Virus record (IMG/VR): IMGVR_UViG_3300046467_000484
Span: 1 to 24,305 of that record
Length of the DNA: 24,305 bases
Source: a virus
Strand: one strand, 5' to 3'
The notes under the pieces were generated by a model, which had not been told where the DNA came from, searched no databases, and saw only the letters and a program-made list of their open reading frames with translations. Below, one piece after another: positions 2,214 through 22,094 of this stretch (positions are counted from its first letter, which is position 1; the number at the start of each line of letters is the position of its first letter). A program made the translations under genes and the position numbers.

Positions 2214-2936
2214 TTAAGATTGAACTCGTTCTTTTCTTGCGCTTCCGTCGTAATCGGCACATACAAGACCACGCCTCGTGAGCATAGTTTTGACACCTCT
2301 TACAGTTTTGCCGATTTGATCAGCAATTTCTTCGACAGTTAAGCCGTCGATTTCTACGTCAGCCAATGGGTCTGCTTTACCAGATCCCTTGGTAACTTCC
2401 TGCTTAGGGATAGCGTTAATTTCGCCAGCTCTAAGTAAAGAAAGTGCTTTTCCTCTGACAGAGTTTACACTCTTGCCAAGAGTATCAGCTATAGCTTCGA
2501 TGAACGCGCCATCGTTAACCATACCAACAAAAGTTCCTTCTTCTGCATCAGTGTAAGTTTTTACACTTTCAACTTTAGGAGCAGGTTTAACGTGCTCAGT
2601 AAGTTGCATAGAAAGGATTTTTCCTTGTATTGATTTTGCACTAAAGTGCCCGCCTTCAAAATTTGCGGCTATTTCAGCGTATGTGTACTGACTAGAATTG
2701 TCAGTTACGAAAGCTGAAAGTGTTGCTTCTTGTTCGTCTGTGAAAGACTTTGTATTAGAGCTAGAAGCTAACTCTACATCATATCCCATTTTTCTAAGTT
2801 TAGAACTTACACTTCTAACAGAAGTTTCTAGTTCGCCTGCAGCAGATGCTACAGTAGCTTGGGAAACGGGGGTTTCAGCACCAACAAAAGATTCCAATGA
2901 TGCGGTTCTTTCGTCTGTCCATTTAGGTAATGCCAT
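2214..2936 (-). CDS. Four-module SANT/Myb-like HTH protein
   Basis: 240 residues built from four related helix-turn-helix modules at about 1-55, 60-115, 122-175 and 195-232. Each has an acidic W/Y/F-T-D-E/A-E start and ends in a recognition-helix pattern: TSVRSVSSKLRKMG, SAKSIQGKILSM, KSVNSVRGKALSLL and KTVRGVKTMLTRRGL. This suggests a multivalent DNA-binding protein, perhaps a transcription or genome-organising factor. The target is unknown. The ATG at 2934-2936 is chosen over a TTG four codons upstream because GGAG lies 6 bases before it. It overlaps the ligase C-terminal half by 14 bases. Related single-module proteins occur at 9283, 20147 and 21750. Confidence 0.7.
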   Translation of the reverse strand: MALPKWTDERTASLESFVGAETPVSQATVASAAGELETSVRSVSSKLRKMGYDVELASSSNTKSFTDEQEATLSAFVTDNSSQYTYAEIAANFEGGHFSAKSIQGKILSMQLTEHVKPAPKVESVKTYTDAEEGTFVGMVNDGAFIEAIADTLGKSVNSVRGKALSLLRAGEINAIPKQEVTKGSGKADPLADVEIDGLTVEEIADQIGKTVRGVKTMLTRRGLVCADYDGSARKERVQS

Positions 2937-3717
2937 TTTTTTCTCCAAATAAATCGTTAAGATTTGTTATAATAATGACTCCTCGATCTCGAGCAGTCTG
3001 CGTTTTGGCTGACTCTATTCCACTCTCGTTTATTAAGTGAGTGCAGTCTTTAGTCAGACTGGTTTTTACGGCGTAGCCGTGGTTCTCCAGAACCTTTGTA
3101 GCATGAGCTTTGCTAGGGAAACTTTTGAGTCTGCCACTAATACAGACGACTCCGATTATATCTCGTTTTACAACTCTTTTAGATTTGAAACTAAAAGGAA
3201 GTAAGTCATTGTACCTGTTTGGGTAAAACTCTGTTTCTAACCAAGCCATTAGGTTAGCTGTTGCTTTCGGACCGATACCTGCTTCAGTACAGCTTGCTTC
3301 GGTTACTTCTTCGATAGATGTAATCTTTTCGCATAATTTCTGTGAAGCTGTTCGACCAAAAAGCGGAATAGAAAAAGCGGGTAATAGCGTTTGCAGATCG
3401 GTTTTACAAGAATTTATAATTTCGATTGCCAACTTCTTCGCCATTTTCTCTGAGCCCAGTCTGACGGTAATTTCCCCGACAGTGAGCTCATACAGTTCTG
3501 GATAATCTAGGATTTCCAACTTTTTAATAGTTGCGGGGCCTAGCCCCTTTATTTTCAAAGAACTTGAAAAATGTTCCAATTTTTTGTCCCATTGAGCTGA
3601 ACACATCTTGTTAAAGCAGTAAAGTAGTTCGTTAATAAACTTCAATTCGCTTTCACAGGAAGGACAGTTCGTTGGGGCTAAAATTTGTTCCATTCGTGAT
3701 TTCTCATTCTTTTTCAT
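2923..3717 (-). CDS. NAD+-dependent DNA ligase, C-terminal half (Zn finger-HhH-BRCT)
   Basis: 264 residues matching only the C-terminal half of bacterial LigA. A Cys4 zinc finger (C18, C21, C34, C39) is followed by the LigA-like AQWDKKLEHFSS segment. Helix-hairpin-helix repeats come next (KIKGLGPATIKKL near 55, more to about 165), and a BRCT domain fills about 190-264 (VCISGRLKSF, THLI). There is no adenylation domain; that half is encoded at 7598-8548. The halves should assemble to seal nicks during replication, as two-subunit ligases of T5-like phages are thought to do. The gene begins 10 bases beyond a perfect -10 box, so its mRNA leader is very short. An internal ATG at residue 9 is an alternative start. 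Confidence 0.88.
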   Translation of the reverse strand: MKKNEKSRMEQILAPTNCPSCESELKFINELLYCFNKMCSAQWDKKLEHFSSSLKIKGLGPATIKKLEILDYPELYELTVGEITVRLGSEKMAKKLAIEIINSCKTDLQTLLPAFSIPLFGRTASQKLCEKITSIEEVTEASCTEAGIGPKATANLMAWLETEFYPNRYNDLLPFSFKSKRVVKRDIIGVVCISGRLKSFPSKAHATKVLENHGYAVKTSLTKDCTHLINESGIESAKTQTARDRGVIIITNLNDLFGEKNGIT

Positions 3718-3904: not shown

Positions 3905-4682
3905 ATTTTTTCTCTGCATCTTTAATTATTATGTCTGCCATTAAACGATGTGCTTCCTCTAACGGATGATCTTTTTTTCCAATAGGCAGACTTGCCTTTT
4001 TAGTTATATCATAAAAACCATCTTCTATTAAAAAGGGTAATTCATTTACTATTTGTTTCTTACTAAGTTCTACTGAATCCCAGTAATTACTTGCTGCTTC
4101 CAAATAGTCCTCATCTAGCAAATACAAGAAGGGTTTATATTGCCCACTTGAAAATGTATAAAATAGATAAGGAATATCTAGTGATTCTAAAAAGTGTTTT
4201 GTTGCAAGCATGTAACTAATACTATACTTTAAATTTTGTCTTATGTTTCTTACTTCTTTCATATACCCATTTAGATAATGAAAGTGTTCATCTGTTGAGT
4301 CTTGATGTTTATATAGGTTTGTTTTTAACTTATCAACTTCTAAACTTTGATGTGCTAATACATGGTTCTGCCAATTAGTTGCTCTCCACCTCGGGCTTTT
4401 AGTTTTTGTATTGGGTAAGTACTTATTGCCAGATTTATTCTCTCCTATCTGTAAATATTCTATTCTGTTTATTCCAGACCACATTATAACTACTAAATCA
4501 TACTTATTAGTTAAACAATGATTCATAGTAGTTCTCCATATCCTATCATTGGAACCGCCTACCTTAGCATCATTATCTTCTTCCTCATTAAAGTGTGCAC
4601 AGACTAAACTAGAAAATCTATGTTTAAACTTTTGTTCTAATTCATACCCGTTAGTAAAGCTACAACCATTAAAATAAATCAA
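3879..4682 (-). CDS. SGNH/GDSL-like hydrolase
   Basis: 267 residues. Block I is GCSFT at 6-10 (nucleophile Ser8), a GGSND block lies near 42-46 (oxyanion Asn), and a C-terminal D-H-P-x4-H segment near 238-244 supplies the Asp/His pair. The family covers esterases, acyl-transferring or deacylating enzymes; the substrate is not known. Next to a carbamoyltransferase it may act on a glycan or another modified polymer (inference). The start is TTG, overlapping the carbamoyltransferase stop as TTGA. It is chosen because any later start would delete the Ser block, which sits at the extreme N-terminus. GGAG is 10 bases upstream. Confidence 0.75.
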   Translation of the reverse strand: MIYFNGCSFTNGYELEQKFKHRFSSLVCAHFNEEEDNDAKVGGSNDRIWRTTMNHCLTNKYDLVVIMWSGINRIEYLQIGENKSGNKYLPNTKTKSPRWRATNWQNHVLAHQSLEVDKLKTNLYKHQDSTDEHFHYLNGYMKEVRNIRQNLKYSISYMLATKHFLESLDIPYLFYTFSSGQYKPFLYLLDEDYLEAASNYWDSVELSKKQIVNELPFLIEDGFYDITKKASLPIGKKDHPLEEAHRLMADIIIKDAEKKYETNKKDN

Positions 4683-6052
4683 AATACTTGTACTCCATAT
4701 TTTCTCTCAAATTCTAGAGCATCCTTTCTAGTATTAACCATGGGCTTTCCCTTTATATTTAAACTTGTATTTAATAACATGGGACAACCTGTTCTATTAT
4801 AAAACTCCTCTAGAACTTTTCTCAAAATAGAGGTGCTATCTTTCTTTACGACTTGAACTCTTGCGCTATTATCTACATGGGTAACGGCTTTATAGTCATG
4901 TTTTGCTTGAGAGACGAACTGCATGTACTCGTTCTTTTCTCCTTCAAAGTAGTCATCAAAGTACTCCTCTAAAATTGCAGGAGCAAAAGGTCTAAATTTT
5001 TGCCTTCTTTTGATTTTATTAACTTTGCGTTTAATATTGTATCGTGGGTCACCAAGTAAGCTACGATTTCCTAGGGCTCTAGGTCCAAATTCTGCTCTAC
5101 CATTTGCAATTCCTACTACTTTATTTGCTATTAAACTATTAACTATCGTTTTAGGACTTACTGATCTTACTATATCATACCCCCAAAAGCAATCTTTAAA
5201 CTCTACCTTGCGGCATAGATAACCTAGTGCTGCTCCTAAACTATTTCCTCCATCGCCAGGGTTTGGAAATACCCAAATCTTATCAAAGTGTCGAGGTAAT
5301 ATTTTACTATTAGCTACACAGTTAAGTGCAACGCCTCCACCATAACAAATATTTGATCCATACTCACTAGCTTTTGCCATTATAGCATTGATTCGGTTTT
5401 CAACTTCAAATTGAGCACTAGCCGCAATATCTTCTGGAGCATAGCCTTGAAAGTCAAAAACTCCAAAACCTCTATGCCAATTTCTATCGGGCAGATCAAA
5501 ACACCATCGCATTGAAACTATAGGTTCACCAAACGCAGCCATTCCCATAGTAATATATTCATCTTCATTAGGTTTTAAACCAAGACGCTTCGTTATAGCA
5601 CTATAAAATAGTCCGATGCTGTGAGGGTATCTTTCTTCCCAAACACATTCTAGCCCATACTCTTTTGGAATCCATATACTTGAACATGCCCATTCTCCAA
5701 TAGCATCAATTACTACTATAACAGTATTATCATCAAAAGGTGCAGTATAATACGCTGCTGCTGCGTGGCTTTGGTGATGATTTAAGTGGTGCGAACATAC
5801 ATCCACATATTCTACGGGAGACATGGAATGAAACTTTCTACGCTGATTCTTTAGTTTAATGCTCTCATGAAAAACCGAGACATCTGCGCGAGTATATCGT
5901 AATTTAGGTGGTAACCATGGATCGTTCTTTCTCCCTGTATACCTTTCTGCCTGTGCTGCAAAATGAATTTTTACTTTGTCTGTGTAGGGAGAAACTTCCA
6001 CTAAAGAAGCAGAAGCGTCATGAAATCCCTCGCTAATACCTAATACTCTCAT
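4679..6052 (-). CDS. NodU/TobZ-family carbamoyltransferase
   Basis: 457 residues. Enzymes of this family transfer the carbamoyl group of carbamoyl phosphate, through a carbamoyl-adenylate, to a hydroxyl group of a small molecule, glycan or nucleoside. The Kae1-like N-terminal domain is seen in VLGISEGFHDASASL (3-17) and the metal-binding SHHLNHHQSHA (87-97). The C-terminal domain is seen in NGRAEFGPRALGNRSLLGDPR and LNTSLNIKGKPMV. It is shorter than typical NodU/TobZ enzymes (roughly 550-600 residues) but both motif sets are present. The ATG at 6050-6052 forms an ATGA overlap with the upstream gene; a GTG four codons earlier lacks a ribosome binding site. Some phage carbamoyltransferases are linked to modified cytosines; whether this one is cannot be seen here. 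Confidence 0.9.
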   Translation of the reverse strand: MRVLGISEGFHDASASLVEVSPYTDKVKIHFAAQAERYTGRKNDPWLPPKLRYTRADVSVFHESIKLKNQRRKFHSMSPVEYVDVCSHHLNHHQSHAAAAYYTAPFDDNTVIVVIDAIGEWACSSIWIPKEYGLECVWEERYPHSIGLFYSAITKRLGLKPNEDEYITMGMAAFGEPIVSMRWCFDLPDRNWHRGFGVFDFQGYAPEDIAASAQFEVENRINAIMAKASEYGSNICYGGGVALNCVANSKILPRHFDKIWVFPNPGDGGNSLGAALGYLCRKVEFKDCFWGYDIVRSVSPKTIVNSLIANKVVGIANGRAEFGPRALGNRSLLGDPRYNIKRKVNKIKRRQKFRPFAPAILEEYFDDYFEGEKNEYMQFVSQAKHDYKAVTHVDNSARVQVVKKDSTSILRKVLEEFYNRTGCPMLLNTSLNIKGKPMVNTRKDALEFERKYGVQVF

Positions 6053-6306
6053 GATGGTGTCCACCTGTATTTCTTTGGATCACCATACTTAAATGGTTTA
6101 GATATGTTAAATATAGGAGGTCGTCTACCATTACCAACCCATGTGAAGTGATGACATACCATTATTGGATCTGGATTAGTATACCAAGCTATTATTTCTT
6201 TAGCGTTTGCACAGTATTTTTCTATACCTTGTTCACTATCTGCTACTAAGTATTCTCGTTTTCCAACTGTGTCTTTGCATGATGCAAAATGATATTGTGT
6301 TGTCAT
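6049..6306 (-). CDS. Hypothetical protein (85 aa)
   Basis: Begins MTTQYHFASCKDTVGKREYL. Mixed composition with many aromatic residues (HHFTWVGNGRRPPIF, PKKYRWTPS). No known domain is recognised. It is joined to both neighbours by ATGA overlaps, so it is translated within the accessory operon that runs from the prolyl-hydroxylase-like gene to the SGNH hydrolase. Confidence 0.7.
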   Translation of the reverse strand: MTTQYHFASCKDTVGKREYLVADSEQGIEKYCANAKEIIAWYTNPDPIMVCHHFTWVGNGRRPPIFNISKPFKYGDPKKYRWTPS

Positions 6307-6482
6307 TGATCTAACTCCTGTTTAATGCTCTCCTTTCCTAGCTTTCTAAAGCGTTTATTATATTGACGTTTAATCTTCTTTACTACCTTAGAGTTATCAA
6401 GGTAACACATCATGTTACGCCATCTGGTAAATGTGTCCCACTCTGCTGCACCTTTTAATTTGATCTTGGGTCTCTTCTTCAT
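6303..6482 (-). CDS. Small basic hypothetical protein (59 aa)
   Basis: Begins MKKRPKIKLKGAAEWDTFTR and ends KESIKQELDQ. Strongly basic and helical, which suggests nucleic-acid or ribosome contact, but no family is recognised. The ATG at 6480-6482 overlaps the stop of the upstream oxygenase (ATGA), with GGAG 10 bases upstream. A GTG eight codons earlier is a less likely start. The stop also overlaps the next gene's start as ATGA. Confidence 0.65.
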   Translation of the reverse strand: MKKRPKIKLKGAAEWDTFTRWRNMMCYLDNSKVVKKIKRQYNKRFRKLGKESIKQELDQ

Positions 6483-7051
6483 TGAATTGGTACTCCGCGT
6501 GTCCACATATTAAATGAGTACTTTATCCCTTCCGTTACTAGAGTACTCCTATGCCACATATCACAGCAGAATAATAAAGCATCTCCTGTCTTTAAGTTAA
6601 AAGGTTGATGCCTGTATATTTCTGTTGCTCCTCCACTAAATTTATTATTTAGTTGGATTAGACAACTAATACGATAAGGTGCTCTTTTAGTATATAAAGT
6701 TTCTATTTCTTCATGATTATCTTTGTGCCAATTTAAATCTTCTGAAGGAGTGAGTTTATTTATGTACTGTACTGTCTCATCTTGTAGTACAAAGTTATAA
6801 CTCATTCTATTGTATTCTTTAACTAATTCATGTATATCACTAGGAACAGATTTATTTTGCACTACTGCTCTGTTAGAAGTAGCAGGATAATTGCGAGGCT
6901 GTTCTGCTGCCCCGTGAGTACCTAGCTTGGTAAAACTCATTGGCACAAACTTATCCTGATGTTCCCTAATCATCTTATTGCATTGATCTACTGTCCAGAA
7001 GCCTTTCTCAACTCCTAGTACATTAAATTTTACTCCGTGTTGTATTATCAT
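6479..7051 (-). CDS. 2OG-Fe(II) oxygenase, prolyl 4-hydroxylase-like
   Basis: 190 residues. It has the iron-binding triad H109-K-D111 (in NWHKDNH) and H167 (MWHRS), and Lys177 in GIKYSFNMW at the 2-oxoglutarate-binding position. The SGGATEIY strand before the second histidine is typical of the P4H/PKHD superfamily. It should hydroxylate a protein side chain or another small substrate using O2 and 2-oxoglutarate; the substrate is unknown. It lies upstream of the carbamoyltransferase, with gene overlaps throughout, so a hydroxyl made here could be the carbamoyl acceptor (inference). Its start overlaps the stop of the GIY-YIG-like gene. Confidence 0.85.
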   Translation of the reverse strand: MIIQHGVKFNVLGVEKGFWTVDQCNKMIREHQDKFVPMSFTKLGTHGAAEQPRNYPATSNRAVVQNKSVPSDIHELVKEYNRMSYNFVLQDETVQYINKLTPSEDLNWHKDNHEEIETLYTKRAPYRISCLIQLNNKFSGGATEIYRHQPFNLKTGDALLFCCDMWHRSTLVTEGIKYSFNMWTRGVPIQ

Positions 7052-7422: not shown

Positions 7423-7598
7423 TAGTGTAAAGTAAGATTTAGTTCCTTGTATTCTTCTAATAAATCTTCGAACCATTCCTCGTCATTCTCAACCATTCCT
7501 CTAAATTCTTCAATTCCAACATAGCCACTCCCGTCTGGGATCTTAGATATATAAACCTGATAAGCTTCTGCTAATTGACTCTCTAAATATAATAACAC
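7422..7598 (-). CDS. Small acidic protein (58 aa), GTG start
   Basis: From a GTG at 7596-7598 that overlaps the ligase stop codon as TAGTG, to a TAA that overlaps the next ATG as TAATG. The protein reads (M)LLYLESQLAEAYQVYISK, then DGSGYVGIEEF, and ends EYKELNLTLH. The double overlap with both neighbours is the best evidence that it is translated. The DGSGYVGIEE stretch resembles an EF-hand loop but lacks the first Asp. The function is unknown. Confidence 0.55.
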   Translation of the reverse strand: MLLYLESQLAEAYQVYISKIPDGSGYVGIEEFRGMVENDEEWFEDLLEEYKELNLTLH

Positions 7599-8548
7599 TA
7601 TACTCGTCTCACAATGCGGGGTATAATTTCTCCGCTTCTAATAACCTCTACACTACAACCGATCTCTAAATCTAACTGATTTATAAAACCTATGTTATGT
7701 AATGTAGCCCTAGAAATAGTAGCTCCCCCTATGTTAATAGGCTCGAGAATTGCAACGGGAGCTACCACTCCACTTTTTCCTGTATTCCATACTACATCTA
7801 ATAGTTCTGTAACTACTCCCTTCTCTCGAGTTTTAAGAGCATACGCTCCTCTAGGGTGATGTGCGGTGAACCCCATTTCCTTGTAATAGGCATATTTGTC
7901 CACTCTGAATACTATGCCGTCTTGGGGAAAACAGTTGTAATCTCCGATAGAAATTACGTTAAACCAGTTATCTAATAACTTCATGTCTTCCAGCCAGTAC
8001 GTACCAATATATGGTTGAATACCATATACTATGAATGTTAGTTTTCTACTCTTAAATTCTTCAGCATCTTTCAGGTTTAATGCTCCTGCCGCATAATTTC
8101 TCGCATTTTTTATTGTTTTGGGTGCTACTATTTCTCCTGTGATTTGTCTCAATCCAGAGAATAATGATTTCCCAAATTCTAATGAGCGAGGTACGATATG
8201 CTTAATTTTATCGCTTATATCTAAACCTGCTTTGCCATCCCCTCTAGTTAAGGCGTCATGAAATATTCCATTTACATAACATATAGACACAGCTGCACCG
8301 TCCATTTTTGGTGTGGCAACTACTGCGTTATTTCCATAATCGGGGGGTGTGCCTTCGTTGGCGAAGACTTTTTGAAGTGAATACATTGGAAAGGGATGGG
8401 CGAAACGGGAATCCGTGTCATGCCCAATCTTGAACTCTTGTTGTGTGTTTTCGACTAAGCGGTCATAAACCTCATCTGGAATGATGGGCAGACCTTTGTA
8501 GTACTGATCGCGACACTTGCTTAAATACGTTTCCAAATCTCTATTCAT
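7598..8548 (-). CDS. ligA: NAD+-dependent DNA ligase, N-terminal (adenylation and OB) half
   Basis: 316 residues. It starts with a shortened domain Ia (YYKGLPIIPDEVYDRL, 16-31) that binds NMN in LigA, then MYSLQKVF (55-62). The nucleotidyl-transferase motif K81-M-D-G carries the lysine that is adenylated. TRGDGKAGLDIS (101-112), a TGEI motif and DGIVFRVD follow. The OB domain (VAPVAILEPINIGG, SRATLHN) fills the end, where the protein stops. The zinc finger, HhH and BRCT domains are in a separate gene at 2923-3717. The ATG lies 6 bases after a perfect -10 box with no Shine-Dalgarno, so the mRNA is predicted leaderless; domain Ia begins right at this ATG, which supports the start. Confidence 0.92.
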   Translation of the reverse strand: MNRDLETYLSKCRDQYYKGLPIIPDEVYDRLVENTQQEFKIGHDTDSRFAHPFPMYSLQKVFANEGTPPDYGNNAVVATPKMDGAAVSICYVNGIFHDALTRGDGKAGLDISDKIKHIVPRSLEFGKSLFSGLRQITGEIVAPKTIKNARNYAAGALNLKDAEEFKSRKLTFIVYGIQPYIGTYWLEDMKLLDNWFNVISIGDYNCFPQDGIVFRVDKYAYYKEMGFTAHHPRGAYALKTREKGVVTELLDVVWNTGKSGVVAPVAILEPINIGGATISRATLHNIGFINQLDLEIGCSVEVIRSGEIIPRIVRRV

Positions 8549-9282: not shown

Positions 9283-9684
9283 TTAATTGTTCATCGAGTT
9301 AATTAACTCTGCAAAATAATTAGCTGCTTTCCCTGTCAGCTTACTAATTATTGCTACATCTGGCTCTTTGCCTGCGTCTTGAATTGCATTGGTCAAAGTT
9401 GCCTGTGCATCTGCTACAGATACACGACCACCACCAGTCGATCCATTACTAGATGAGCGCGTTGCAGGAGTTTTCTTAACATATACACCAGCTCTGGTCA
9501 AGATCATTCTTACACCATTTGGGCTCTCGCCTAATTCGGAAGCAATGTCTTTAACAATTTCCATACTGTTTTCAGGAGTAGGATCTTTAGAGGTATATTT
9601 ATTGATGGCTTGTTGTTTTTTATCTTCTTCCCAAGGCATTCGTTTTCTCCGTTGTTGTTGTTGAAAGTAAAATCTGTCGCTCAT
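9283..9684 (-). CDS. Phage SANT/HTH DNA-binding protein
   Basis: 133 residues. The N-terminus MSDRFYFQQQQRRKR is followed by an acidic MPWEEDKKQQAINKY and a helix-turn-helix: TPENSMEIVKDIASELGES then PNGVRMILTRAGVYVKK. This arrangement is widespread in marine T4-like phages, where the protein is uncharacterised. A Ser/Gly linker (about 75-87) leads to a second helical domain (residues 88-133). The ATG at 9684 overlaps the TGA of a 4-codon mini-ORF (MKKS) that begins just after the promoter. An internal ATG at 9639 with GGAG 7 bases upstream could give a second start. It likely binds DNA as a regulator; the target is unknown. Confidence 0.72.
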   Translation of the reverse strand: MSDRFYFQQQQRRKRMPWEEDKKQQAINKYTSKDPTPENSMEIVKDIASELGESPNGVRMILTRAGVYVKKTPATRSSSNGSTGGGRVSVADAQATLTNAIQDAGKEPDVAIISKLTGKAANYFAELINSMNN

Positions 9685-13169: not shown

Positions 13170-13547
13170 TTACTTACTATTGATCTTATCTTTTGCTGTA
13201 CCAGCGTATAGTCCAAACCAAGCGGCTCCTGCACCTACTACAATCGAAATCAATCCCGACTGCTCAAAGGAGGGGGCTTCTAGGTCCATGAACCAAAGTG
13301 TACACTTGTACAATAGTATCATATATATACTTAAGAACGCTCTAGGGAATAGACGCCACGCGTCTATCATGTTAGAAAACCATATAACCTTTTGCCAAGG
13401 ATTATCTGGCTCTTTTTCGTTCTCCATTTCCATTATCTTTGCTTTTAGTTCCCCTATTTCAGAAACCATTGCCATAAATTTGTTAAGGTCAATTTCTACC
13501 TCGTTCCTAGACATATCGCCTGAGAACTGTTCAGATGGCTGTGCCAT
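13170..13547 (-). CDS. Putative holin, two-pass membrane protein
   Basis: 125 residues. The polar N-terminal half has a short coiled coil (about 20-48). Two transmembrane segments follow: about 70-89 (AFLSIYMILLYKCTLWFMDL) and 98-117 (GLISIVVGAGAAWFGLYAGT), with a basic C-terminus KDKINSK. The pattern W-x-x-F-P-R-A-F-L-S-I-Y-M and the glycine-rich second helix match holin candidates of marine phages. A holin would form the membrane lesion that triggers lysis. The endolysin and spanins are 3.5-5 kb upstream in the same orientation. GGGAG lies 6 bases before the ATG; the gene ends about 30 bases before the next promoter. Confidence 0.62.
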   Translation of the reverse strand: MAQPSEQFSGDMSRNEVEIDLNKFMAMVSEIGELKAKIMEMENEKEPDNPWQKVIWFSNMIDAWRLFPRAFLSIYMILLYKCTLWFMDLEAPSFEQSGLISIVVGAGAAWFGLYAGTAKDKINSK

Positions 13548-14232
13548 TTATTTCTCCCAACCAGTCTAACCATTCAACTCTTTTATGAGGTTTTTTTCGC
13601 TCCGTAAAGTGAAAAGAAATGGATATCCTTGGGCTTAGGGTATCTACCCTGTGATATAATTTTTTAGGTATATATAATAAATCTCCTTCAGATAAGTCAA
13701 TAACTGATCCAACAGTTGCCTCATCTCTAATAGGACAATCATATTCAAACTCATTATAAATATACCAACGAACATCTCCTCTTACATGAAAAAGAAAGTT
13801 GTCCGTGCTATCAGCATGGATGGGGAAGCATTTAGCTCCCTTCATATTAGAACAATAAAGGTTGGCTTGTCCCATTCCATAGTGCTTTTCAAACTCTTGA
13901 CATTGTTGCCACATTGTTTTATTTAAGAACTCGCTAAGAGTCAAAATGAAACTGCAACCATCCTGCCAATGTTTGAAAATTTCTTCTCTAGTTAGTTTAA
14001 CCTTTGCTTTTTTATGACAGTACTTCCCAGTAGGAGTTACTATCTGTAATTGTGGCATACGATCCCACCCACCCAGTTTATTACTGTTTAAGTATGCATC
14101 AAGTTCTTTCCAACTAAAGTGATCTTTAAAAATATTTTCTTTGCTTTTAGCTACAAAATACTTTTTATCTTTGAACTCTTTCTCGAATCTTGATAAGGAC
14201 ATTGGTAATAGTTGTTCAAATGGTATGCTCAT
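13531..14232 (-). CDS. JmjC/cupin-4 type 2OG oxygenase
   Basis: 233 residues. The C-terminal half shows the JmjC-like cupin fold: FPIHADSTDNFLFHVRGDVR with H139-A-D141, then VIDLSEGDLLYIPKKLYHRV with H194, and SISFHF. This layout (H-x-D, G-D-x-x-W, G-D-L-L-Y-I-P, distal His) is that of the RoxA/YcfD-MINA-NO66 group, whose known members hydroxylate ribosomal proteins. YcfD itself modifies an Arg of uL16. Whether the phage enzyme acts on ribosomes or another protein is not known. It starts by an ATGA overlap with the PKHD oxygenase upstream and overlaps the holin gene downstream. Confidence 0.75.
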   Translation of the reverse strand: MSIPFEQLLPMSLSRFEKEFKDKKYFVAKSKENIFKDHFSWKELDAYLNSNKLGGWDRMPQLQIVTPTGKYCHKKAKVKLTREEIFKHWQDGCSFILTLSEFLNKTMWQQCQEFEKHYGMGQANLYCSNMKGAKCFPIHADSTDNFLFHVRGDVRWYIYNEFEYDCPIRDEATVGSVIDLSEGDLLYIPKKLYHRVDTLSPRISISFHFTERKKPHKRVEWLDWLGEINGTAI

Positions 14233-14717
14233 TTTTCTTTAAACCAAGTTACTAAAGAATGTCTTACTCCTCGTGTTACTGGTTTTACTCTATGTCTCAA
14301 CGCTGGGTTAAAAATAATTATTGATAGAGGATTAAATGCATGGTCTGGTAATTCAATTCCGTCAATTTCTAACTCACCACCTTCATACTGGTCTCTCGGG
14401 GATAATACTGAAATAAAACTATACTTTCTATAATCATCTCTTGCTGCATCAATATGCCAATTATAGTAGTTCCCCGTTTTATAAGTTAAGACATTTGCTG
14501 GTTCTGCTTTTAGCTCCCCATAAGGTTTCATAAATTCAGCCAACCAAGGATCTATTTGATTTCTTAAAAATCTAACATCTACTTTTCTATTCTCATCCAG
14601 TGATACCTTTCCGTTCTTACCTGTTACGCCTGGTACTGCTATATGAGTTTCTAAACACTTCACACAAGCACTATATACCTCTACACTTAATGCATTTTCA
14701 AAAACTGCTACCTTCAT
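14229..14717 (-). CDS. 2OG-Fe(II) oxygenase, PKHD type
   Basis: 162 residues. The iron triad is H88-I-D90 (YNWHIDA) and H142 (LRHRV), with the conserved YEGGELEI strand and R152 in GVRHSLVTWF for 2-oxoglutarate. This matches PiuC/PKHD-like hydroxylases common in marine phages. The target is unknown. AGGAG is 5 bases before the ATG, which overlaps the glycosyltransferase stop (TAATG). The next gene is a second, unrelated oxygenase, joined by ATGA. Confidence 0.87.
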   Translation of the reverse strand: MKVAVFENALSVEVYSACVKCLETHIAVPGVTGKNGKVSLDENRKVDVRFLRNQIDPWLAEFMKPYGELKAEPANVLTYKTGNYYNWHIDAARDDYRKYSFISVLSPRDQYEGGELEIDGIELPDHAFNPLSIIIFNPALRHRVKPVTRGVRHSLVTWFKEK

Positions 14718-19454: not shown

Positions 19455-19529
19455 TGGCGGTCTGACGGGGAATCGAACCCCGAACTATGCCGTGACAGGG
19501 CATTATTATAGCCGTTTAACTACCAAACC
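19455..19529 (-). tRNA. trnD: tRNA-Asp (GTC)
   Basis: 75 bases including the encoded CCA. The acceptor stem GGTTTGG/TCAGACC has two G:T pairs. The anticodon loop CTGTCAC gives GTC, and the T-arm is CGGGG-TTCGATT-CCCCG with discriminator G. It is the last tRNA of the minus-strand cluster. Confidence 0.93.
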
Positions 19530-19533
19530 ATAT

Positions 19534-19608
19534 TGGTACTCTGTAGGAGAATCGAACTCCTGTTGCATGGATGAAAACCATGTGTCCTGACCACTAGACG
19601 AACAGAGC
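19534..19608 (-). tRNA. trnE: tRNA-Glu (TTC)
   Basis: 75 bases with encoded CCA. The acceptor stem GCTCTGT/ACAGAGT, anticodon stem CATGG/CCATG and loop TTTTCAT (anticodon TTC) are all present, with T-loop TTCGATT. It lies only 4 bases from tRNA-Asp. Confidence 0.93.
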
Positions 19609-19618
19609 TTTTGTTTCG

Positions 19619-19692
19619 TGGAGCGGGATAGGAGAATCGAACTCCTGTCCTCAGCTTGGAAGGCTGTGGTAATACCATTATACTAATCCCGC
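19619..19692 (-). tRNA. trnG: tRNA-Gly (TCC)
   Basis: 74 bases with encoded CCA. The acceptor stem GCGGGAT/ATCCCGC is perfect. The anticodon loop CTTCCAA gives TCC. The outermost base pair of the anticodon stem is an A:A mismatch, otherwise the cloverleaf is normal. Confidence 0.92.
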
Positions 19693-19699
19693 ACTATAC

Positions 19700-19789
19700 T
19701 GGCGGAGAGAGCAGGATTCGAACCTGCGAAGGAGTATAATCCTCTCTTACTTAGCAAGCAAGCGCTTTCAACCACTCAGCCATCTCTCC
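19700..19789 (-). tRNA. trnS: tRNA-Ser (GCT)
   Basis: 90 bases with encoded CCA and the long variable arm expected of class II tRNA-Ser. The acceptor stem is GGAGAGA/TCTCTCC; the anticodon loop TTGCTAA gives GCT. It is separated from tRNA-His by a 60-base spacer holding a large inverted repeat. Confidence 0.93.
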
Positions 19790-19802
19790 TAAATAATTGT
19801 AT

Positions 19803-19849
19803 ATTTTTGTTTCATAAAATATACATTGTAAACTTTATGAAACAAAAAT
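19803..19849 (-). repeat. Perfect 16-bp inverted repeat between tRNA genes
   Basis: On the minus strand ATTTTTGTTTCATAAA and its exact complement TTTATGAAACAAAAAT flank a 15-base AT-rich loop. The repeat begins directly after the CCA of tRNA-His and ends 13 bases before tRNA-Ser. It has no GC-rich stem with T-run of terminator type. It may be a processing site (RNase III or E) for the tRNA precursor, or the scar of a mobile element. Confidence 0.8.
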
Positions 19850-19925
19850 TGGGGTGAGCAATGGGGGTCGAACCCACAACCACTGGCTCCACAAGCCAGG
19901 GCTCTACCATTGAGCTATACTCACC
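19850..19925 (-). tRNA. trnH: tRNA-His (GTG)
   Basis: 76 bases with encoded CCA. It carries the extra 5' G(-1) facing C73, the identity element of bacterial tRNA-His. The acceptor GTGAGTA/TGCTCAC, anticodon stem CTGGC/GCCAG and loop TTGTGGA (anticodon GTG) are all present. Its 3' end abuts the inverted repeat. Confidence 0.93.
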
Positions 19926-19929
19926 ATAT

Positions 19930-20006
19930 TGGTTGCGGAAGCTGGATTTGAACCAGCGATCTTTAGTTTATGAGACTAACGAGATACCAAACTTCTCCAT
20001 TCCGCG
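19930..20006 (-). tRNA. trnfM: Initiator-type tRNA-fMet (CAT) without the GGG:CCC pairs
   Basis: 77 bases with encoded CCA, the same length as the E. coli initiator tRNA. It shows the mismatch C1 x A72 that marks initiators, the A11:T24 pair, CTCATAA anticodon loop (CAT), T-loop TTCAAAT, and the terminal CCGCAACCA. The overall sequence lines up with E. coli initiator tRNA almost base for base outside the stems. In contrast, the anticodon stem is TTAGT/ACTAA, so the three consecutive G:C pairs (29-31 with 39-41) needed for normal P-site selection are replaced. Whether it initiates, elongates, or both is open. Confidence 0.88.
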
Positions 20007-20051: not shown

Positions 20052-20080
20052 ATTATACATGGTTTTAAGGGCGAGGTCAA
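20052..20080 (-). promoter_or_regulatory. Sigma70-type promoter, family member 6 (tRNA operon)
   Basis: On the minus strand TTGACC (20075-20080, one mismatch), a 17-base spacer ending CATG, and TATAAT (20052-20057), followed by ATCTATATGAA. It drives the six tRNAs. It is back to back with family member 7 on the other strand, their -35 boxes about 32 bases apart. Confidence 0.88.
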
Positions 20081-20111: not shown

Positions 20112-20140
20112 TTGACACAGAACTTATTTTTTAGTATAAT
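20112..20140 (+). promoter_or_regulatory. Sigma70-type promoter, family member 7
   Basis: TTGACA (20112-20117), a 17-base spacer ending TTTTAG, and TATAAT (20135-20140). It is preceded by AAATAGTTC and followed by AACAATATGAA, whose ATG is the first codon of the HTH gene. It is the only strong rightward promoter of the window and serves the bS21 island. Confidence 0.94.
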
Positions 20141-20146
20141 AACAAT

Positions 20147-20317
20147 ATGAAAACTTGGAATGACAAAGAAATTCGCTTTCTCCAGAAAGCATATAACAAT
20201 GAGCCAATAGCTAAAATAGCTGCGGCTCTTCAGCGTTCCGAACAAAGTATTCGTAGTAAAGTAAATATCATGCGCCGTAAAGGACTTTCCTTTGATCGTG
20301 TGAGGGATAAAAAATAG
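20147..20317 (+). CDS. Small SANT-like HTH protein (56 aa), leaderless
   Basis: Begins MKTWNDKEIRFLQKAYNNEP and continues IAKIAAALQRSEQSIRSKVN, with IMRRKGLSFDRVRDKK at the end. It is a single helix-turn-helix module: acidic W-N-D-K-E start, IAKIAAAL turn, SEQSIRSK recognition helix and a basic tail. It is related to each module of the 2214 protein. The ATG lies 6 bases after the -10 box and no ribosome site is present, so the mRNA should be leaderless. It heads the rightward operon with bS21 and may autoregulate it or the divergent tRNA promoter. Confidence 0.78.
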   Translation: MKTWNDKEIRFLQKAYNNEPIAKIAAALQRSEQSIRSKVNIMRRKGLSFDRVRDKK

Positions 20318-20382
20318 TGGATATTCCAATGAAACTATTAGTATTATTTATTGTGCTATTAGTTATTTGGGGTTTATGGTAA
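20317..20382 (+). CDS. Membrane micropeptide (21 or 17 aa)
   Basis: From a GTG that overlaps the HTH stop (TAGTG) to a TAA that overlaps the next ATG (TAATG). The peptide reads (M)DIPMKLLVLFIVLLVIWGLW; from the internal ATG at 20329 it is 17 residues. Apart from the start it is one hydrophobic helix. The overlaps on both sides and the composition favour translation, but the size prevents proof. Confidence 0.48.
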   Translation: MDIPMKLLVLFIVLLVIWGLW

Positions 20383-21519: not shown

Positions 21520-21753
21520 CTATTGAGTCATTCTACGCTTATATGGGTCTTTTATTAGCTTTTCCCAGTCTGATTCTTGTAGTATCTTAATAGTTTGTAC
21601 TCTTACAACTTCTCTATGGTCATCTCCAAACTTTAATCTCGCATGAAGACCCGATGGGGTTTCAGATAATCCCAACACTTCAGCATATAAACCATGTTCT
21701 TCTACTATTTTCTTAGTATCTTTATCTTCAGAAATTAACTTTGCTACTCTCAT
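21520..21753 (-). CDS. Hypothetical protein (77 aa)
   Basis: Begins MRVAKLISEDKDTKKIVEEH; the centre reads YAEVLGLSETPSGLHARLKF, then VVRVQTIKILQESDWEKLIK. It looks like a small beta barrel followed by a helix. No family is recognised. The ATG at 21751-21753 overlaps the upstream stop as ATGA, with GGGAG 5 bases before it. Last gene before the terminator. Confidence 0.65.
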   Translation of the reverse strand: MRVAKLISEDKDTKKIVEEHGLYAEVLGLSETPSGLHARLKFGDDHREVVRVQTIKILQESDWEKLIKDPYKRRMTQ

Positions 21754-22094
21754 AATGACTCCCATTCTTCAGGTGCTATTTGTAATACTAGTGTCTCAGT
21801 TAAAACCTTTAATGCTAACTTGGGACTCTTCTCAAGACCCGCTAGGGTTTGGTATTCAATTCCTAAGACACTTCCAATCTTTTCAACTAACTCTCGTTTT
21901 GTAACTGGCTTTTCACCCGTCTTGGTTAGGTACTCTGTTTTTAAGTAAATACCTTCTCTAGATAATTTTCCAATTACCGATTTTATACTCTTGTTGAGTT
22001 CTTGTGCTAACTCTTCTACTGTTTCTCTGGTCGGTTCAGCACTATATCTATCTTTCATTAGATCGACCATTTCTTGTGTATAATTTATAGCCAT
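21750..22094 (-). CDS. SANT-like HTH phage protein (114 aa)
   Basis: The N-terminal 55 residues form a helix-turn-helix: YTQEMVDLMKDRYSAEPTRE, TVEELAQELNKSIKSVIGKL and SREGIYLKTEYLTKTGEKPV. A C-terminal helical domain follows (KRELVEKIGSVLGIEYQTLA). The motif T-R-E-T-V-E-E-L-A-x-x-L-N-K-S-I-K-S-V-x-x-K-L-S-R-E-G-I-Y is common in marine T4-like phage proteins without a known role. It probably binds DNA. It overlaps both neighbours (10 and 4 bases) and is one of several paralogues here. Confidence 0.72.
   Translation of the reverse strand: MAINYTQEMVDLMKDRYSAEPTRETVEELAQELNKSIKSVIGKLSREGIYLKTEYLTKTGEKPVTKRELVEKIGSVLGIEYQTLAGLEKSPKLALKVLTETLVLQIAPEEWESL

Follow-up and report, generated by a model that had tools for sequence, protein, structure and literature searches.

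A tRNA-Met of initiator type in a phage tRNA array keeps the middle G:C pair of its anticodon stem, as phage initiators usually do

How much of the anticodon stem of a bacterial initiator tRNA can a phage alter and still encode an initiator? The question is raised by a tRNA-Met gene in a record that consists of a virus contig only, the 24,305 bases of which are the stretch of DNA analysed here (the window). The gene is transcriptionally the first in an array of six tRNA genes on the minus strand (19455-20006). The features of this region are given below in the direction of transcription, with the bases of the tRNA in standard numbering.

20052-20080, minus strand: candidate sigma-70-like promoter, TTGACC-17-TATAAT, 11/12 in a consensus scan, about 45 bases upstream of the tRNA-Met
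19930-20006, minus strand: initiator-type tRNA-Met(CAU), 77 nt, CCA encoded (ARAGORN, Rfam RF00005)
20006, minus strand: C1, mismatched with A72 (19934)
19975-19979, minus strand: 5' strand of the anticodon stem, positions 27-31, UUAGU (G30 is 19976)
19968-19974, minus strand: anticodon loop CUCAUAA (the anticodon CAU is 19970-19972)
19963-19967, minus strand: 3' strand of the anticodon stem, positions 39-43, ACUAA (C40 is 19966, A39 is 19967)
19850-19924, minus strand: tRNA-His(GTG), next in the array, in a block in common with the orthologous contigs L272 and L273
19700-19789, minus strand: tRNA-Ser(GCT) (ARAGORN)
19619-19692, minus strand: tRNA-Gly(TCC) (ARAGORN)
19534-19608, minus strand: tRNA-Glu(TTC) (ARAGORN)
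19455-19529, minus strand: tRNA-Asp(GTC) (ARAGORN)

The tRNA-Met, with the full sequence CGCGGAAUGGAGAAGUUUGGUAUCUCGUUAGUCUCAUAAACUAAAGAUCGCUGGUUCAAAUCCAGCUUCCGCAACCA, matches Rfam RF00005 at 63.2 bits (E 9e-12), in concordance with the ARAGORN call. The contig that carries the array also encodes a helicase, a split ligase and an endolysin, so that the initiator-type tRNA lies inside a phage array. Both the gene and its determinants can be read directly from the DNA: C1xA72, G2:C71, C3:G70 and A11:U24, an anticodon loop C32-U33-CAU-A37-A38 and a T loop UUCAAAU. As expected of the fMet family, there is no Watson-Crick pair at 1:72 (the orthologue described below has AxC), the formylation helpers G2:C71, C3:G70 and A11:U24 are present, and the CAU anticodon sits within a CUCAUAA loop. 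All of these are shared with E. coli-type tRNA-fMet, as are the A57-A59 T loop and the length of 77 nt, and the 1:72 mismatch, G2:C71, C3:G70 and A11:U24 are the sequence determinants of formylation listed in PMC7949028. An earlier note on this DNA had assigned the gene these coordinates and this length, together with C1xA72, A11:U24 and the 3' end CCGCAACCA, and each of them is confirmed. The note had also predicted a formylated initiator with relaxed P-site discrimination; every readable determinant of formylation is there, and it is the relaxed discrimination that is unsupported.

In the anticodon stem all five pairs are formed: U27:A43, U28:A42, A29:U41, G30:C40 and U31:A39. E. coli fMet has three consecutive G:C pairs at 29:41, 30:40 and 31:39, of which the window tRNA-Met keeps only G30:C40, the pair that matters most in the fMet family. 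The description of this gene as one that has lost the three G:C pairs is wrong because the middle pair is still G:C; it holds for the outer two, which are replaced by A:U at 29:41 and U:A at 31:39, each of them a Watson-Crick pair. Reviews call the three G:C pairs universal or nearly so in initiator tRNAs. They do not strictly define the family, since the T5 fMet and the alphaproteobacterial initiators lack the full set too.

The middle pair has a particular standing in the P site. In structures of initiation complexes the 16S rRNA bases G1338 and A1339 make A-minor contacts with both 29:41 and 30:40, while G30 is also touched by the uS13 and uS19 tails (PMC7005279, PMC4611024). Work in E. coli, as related in PMC7005279, makes G30 the most crucial nucleotide for the fidelity of initiation, and PMC2268962 reports that C30:G40 alone lowers initiation. 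Loss of all three pairs abolishes or weakens initiation and is a standard probe of fidelity in E. coli, according to PMC7949028 and PMC10486304. The experimental '3GC mutant', as PMC10486304 gives it, is U29:A41/C30:G40/A31:U39; all three pairs are replaced and the middle one is destroyed. The window tRNA-Met retains that pair and so falls outside this class, and the step from the mutant to a relaxed discrimination in the window tRNA-Met therefore fails. The review PMC11231383 has both G29:C41 and G30:C40 as requirements for efficient synthesis in E. coli, for which reason A29:U41 could cost activity in a host with GGG:CCC.

Phage initiators offer the closest parallels. The annotated initiator in the tRNA array of T5 (tRNA-fMet, AY543070, 32428-32505) has the stem CUAGU/GCUAG, with A29:U41 and G30:C40 as in the window; 31:39 is a U.G wobble in T5 but U:A in the window, and neither is G:C. 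The T5 molecule also differs from the window tRNA-Met in having U1xU72 in place of C1xA72, another T loop and a different overall sequence. What the window shares with the T5 type is the retention of G30:C40 with 29:41 and 31:39 relaxed. A29:U41 and G30:C40 recur in the initiators of Aeromonas phage phiAS5, Agrobacterium phage Atu_ph07, Mycobacterium phage Phabba, Streptomyces phage Wakanda and Synechococcus phage S-CRM01, with C:G or U.G at 31:39 where the window has U:A. G30:C40 is present in all 18 initiator-type tRNAs from phage records and the full GGG:CCC in only two (Vibrio phage D479 and Streptomyces phage GiJojo), in a set that includes a few tRNAs that are initiator-like only in part of the molecule (Sinorhizobium phage Phosso, for example) and leaves out host-like initiators (Pseudomonas phage Y6, Acinetobacter phage MD-2021a) and an elongator (ORM_20). 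With 16 of the 18 short of the full GGG:CCC and every one in possession of G30:C40, T5 included, the stem is not the unusual hybrid for which it had been taken: the window tRNA-Met conforms to the phage norm.

The same rule can be read directly across viral contigs. In IMG/VR the pattern without G31 and C39 occurs in 106 stretches, and it accounts for about 13% of the 119-121 viral initiators listed. Host genes at prophage ends may account for some of the initiators on viral contigs, a source of error for which those with other tRNAs nearby provide a partial control; that subset comprises 34 distinct initiators, nine of them without the standard G31:C39. Among the 78 distinct viral initiators with neither G31 nor C39, 74 keep G30:C40 and 18 keep G29:C41 (Fisher p ~1e-21), and in 58 G30:C40 is the sole canonical G:C pair of the three, as it is in the window. 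Of the 157 initiator-like tRNAs on viral contigs, 149 have G30:C40, compared with 339 of the 490 other tRNAs of these contigs (p ~1e-12); both p-values overstate the evidence and are indicative only, because related viral sequences are not independent. U31:A39 is a rarer choice (11 of 105 viral H31/D39 initiators), and a search of viral contigs for the exact stem gave eight places, mostly in unrelated phages or in tRNAs whose status as initiators is doubtful. Our literature search found no description of a phage-wide G30:C40 pattern, although one may exist all the same.

Bacterial initiators were compared within the sequence frame GGTANCTCGN5CTCATAAN5ANRTCN3GGTTCAAATC, a comparison that extends to initiators inside this frame and so excludes those of Bacteroidota. 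The frame matched in 134 of 289 genomes of Alphaproteobacteria, and among the matches listed the stem was nearly always TCAGG/CCTGA, that is A29:U41, G30:C40 and G31:C39. In 114 genomes of the class of Ottowia (Gammaproteobacteria in GTDB) it was nearly always TCGGG/CCCGA. Between bacterial classes, then, 29:41 varies, and there is next to no variation at 30:40 and 31:39. Alphaproteobacterial initiators resemble the window tRNA-Met in A29:U41 but keep G31:C39, and since they have A29:U41 too, the window stem departs from every sampled bacterial norm only at 31:39. The notion of three universal G:C pairs fails for Alphaproteobacteria as a whole class, A29:U41 being almost uniform there. In 84,980 bacterial genomes just 11 stretches hold an initiator with neither G31 nor C39, and none holds the stem TTAGT/ACTAA within the initiator frame; a plasmid search returned ordinary chromosomal-type initiators only, at no more than 83% identity. 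At least five of the 11 stretches adjoin genes of phages or mobile elements: a terminase (L143), a phage tail tube or head-closure protein (L141), a major head protein (L144), a ten-tRNA cluster with a homing endonuclease (L137) and a serine recombinase (L136). At least one, beside rpoA, looks chromosomal (L139). With about half of these initiators in bacterial assemblies (L135-L145) near genes of phages or mobile elements, the stem might offer an inexpensive way to recognise a tRNA that came from a phage.

The neighbouring Hsp20 gene, used as a query, gathered 49 related contigs, and two of them, IMGVR_UViG_3300027685_000001 (L273) and 3300005969_000039 (L272), carry a syntenic orthologue of the initiator in a flanking block that is 93% identical to the window over 419 bases. 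The orthologue occupies the same place and has the same T arm, but its stem is UUAGG/CCUAA, with G:C at both 30:40 and 31:39, and it has AxC at 1:72 and C13:G22. Seven of the 77 bases differ (positions 1, 13, 17, 22, 31, 39 and 72), and six of the seven form three partner pairs, so that the compensated divergence can be read off directly (orthologue/window): C:G/A:U at 13:22, G:C/U:A at 31:39 and AxC/CxA at 1:72. Position 1 differs through a two-base indel at the edge of the gene. Pairs stay paired and the mismatch stays mismatched; therefore the gene appears to be maintained under selection, and the persistence of the 1:72 mismatch in the orthologue is evidence that this mismatch is probably among the selected features.

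The position of the gene is that of a cassette. Three contigs with a 98% identical Hsp20 are the closest relatives of the window (L261-L263), and in the two that reach the locus (L262 and L263) a tRNA-Ala replaces the tRNA-Met behind the same upstream promoter-like sequence. The block from TGACACCATTTTA through the tRNA-Met and tRNA-His and beyond is shared by the window with L272/L273 and not with L262/L263. By this pattern the window is a recombinant and the initiator tRNA an optional, exchangeable gene, one that the lineage does not need, since such close relatives carry tRNA-Ala in its place. A pattern search of 48 related contigs gave no further initiator, only matches that resemble chance sites. 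tRNA cassettes can be seen here to swap between closely related phages, tRNA-Ala for tRNA-Met or the reverse, behind a single promoter-like site.

Taken together, these observations suggest that the window probably encodes a functional, formylatable initiator tRNA of the ordinary phage type, one that obeys a rule of keeping G30:C40. Transcription and processing of the array would yield the tRNA-Met, the CAU anticodon would allow charging by the host MetRS, and C1xA72, G2:C71, C3:G70 and A11:U24 would lead to formylation by the host formylase. The 1:72 mismatch would exclude the tRNA from EF-Tu and from elongation, G30:C40 would make the contact that matters most in the P site, and the tRNA would start translation as a supplement to the host initiator pool during infection. 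The pairs 29:41 and 31:39, which hardly vary within a host lineage, would be free to change in phages as long as pairing persists. Either relaxed constraint or evasion of an anticodon nuclease may account for the change at 31:39.

Evasion is compatible with a functional phage initiator: a VapC-type toxin would cut host tRNA-fMet during infection, A39 would remove the site at A38-C39 that such a toxin recognises or cuts, and the phage tRNA would be a nuclease-resistant replacement that sustains initiation. PMC4105405 has enteric VapC cleaving tRNA-fMet between A38 and C39, and alteration of phage tRNAs at anticodon-nuclease sites has been proposed as a mechanism of evasion (PMC10264068). G31:C39 is absent from 11 of the 18 initiator-type tRNAs from phage records, and base 39 in other phage copies is G39 or U39. 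Simple drift would be expected to give transitions first, yet the commonest alternative among the 119 viral initiators listed is C31:G39 (10/119, against 1/119 for the transition product A31:U39). The surroundings of the window array held no recognisable gene for repair or for an anti-toxin, however, and evasion cannot be the whole story because seven of the 18 phage-record tRNAs and the L272/L273 orthologue keep C39. We regard this explanation of the window tRNA-Met as rather unlikely. A more inclusive proposal is unlikely: that phage initiators form one consistent class with the middle G:C pair alone retained, that G30:C40 suffices for their acceptance in the P site, and that their altered base 39 is an adaptation to VapC-type toxins.

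The model that builds on the earlier note, in which weakened IF3-dependent discrimination in the P site benefits the phage by allowing initiation on leaderless mRNAs or at unusual start codons, draws on the two pairs of the three that are not G:C. It is quite improbable given that G30:C40 is intact, that initiators with A29:U41 are standard in Alphaproteobacteria and that 33 of the 41 ORFs in the window start with ATG (starts taken mechanically from the ORF call). Finally, that the gene is a relic without function, or in truth encodes an elongator, is highly improbable: the closest relatives lack a tRNA-Met at the locus and the fold is less stable (-19.8 kcal/mol, against -30.3 for E. coli fMet), as fewer G:C pairs would make it, but the stems are complete, three pair differences are compensated, CCA is encoded, a promoter-like site lies upstream and a C1xA72 mismatch is unsuitable for EF-Tu.

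The single tRNA of the window is thus ordinary for a phage, and it is the phage-wide pattern that is worth following. Alphaproteobacteria keep two of the three G:C pairs; phages, as a rule, keep for certain only G30:C40. Given the near-invariance of that pair across many natural variants, both the minimal requirement of the P site and the anticodon-nuclease reading of the other stem changes can be tested directly on tRNAs of T5 and other phages that infect laboratory hosts.

The phage itself encodes a DnaB-like helicase, an NAD-dependent DNA ligase in two separate genes (2923-3717 and 7598-8548, minus strand), an endolysin, Hsp20, MazG, a NodU-like carbamoyltransferase and several 2OG-Fe(II) oxygenases. 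The split ligase and the helicase are T5-like. The clade with the split ligase has more than 100 relatives in IMG/VR and no close isolate: identity is about 27% for the helicase, and about 45% to T5-like phages of Aeromonas and Vibrio for the DNA polymerase of the relatives. The gene for the NodU-like carbamoyltransferase and genes of 2OG-Fe(II) oxygenase and JmjC type (4679-6064, 6479-7051 and 13531-14717, minus strand) are suggestive of DNA or glycan modification. A second sigma-70-like candidate site (20112-20140, plus strand, 12/12) stands back to back with that at 20052-20080 and is followed by a short ORF around 20148-20318 (MKTWNDKEIRFLQ...). Similar helix-turn-helix-like repeats (for example EEIADQIGKTVRGVKTMLTRRG) occur in small proteins encoded at 2214-2948, 9283-9684 and 21750-22094 on the minus strand and at 20148-20318 on the plus strand, which by eye look like a paralogous family within one phage.
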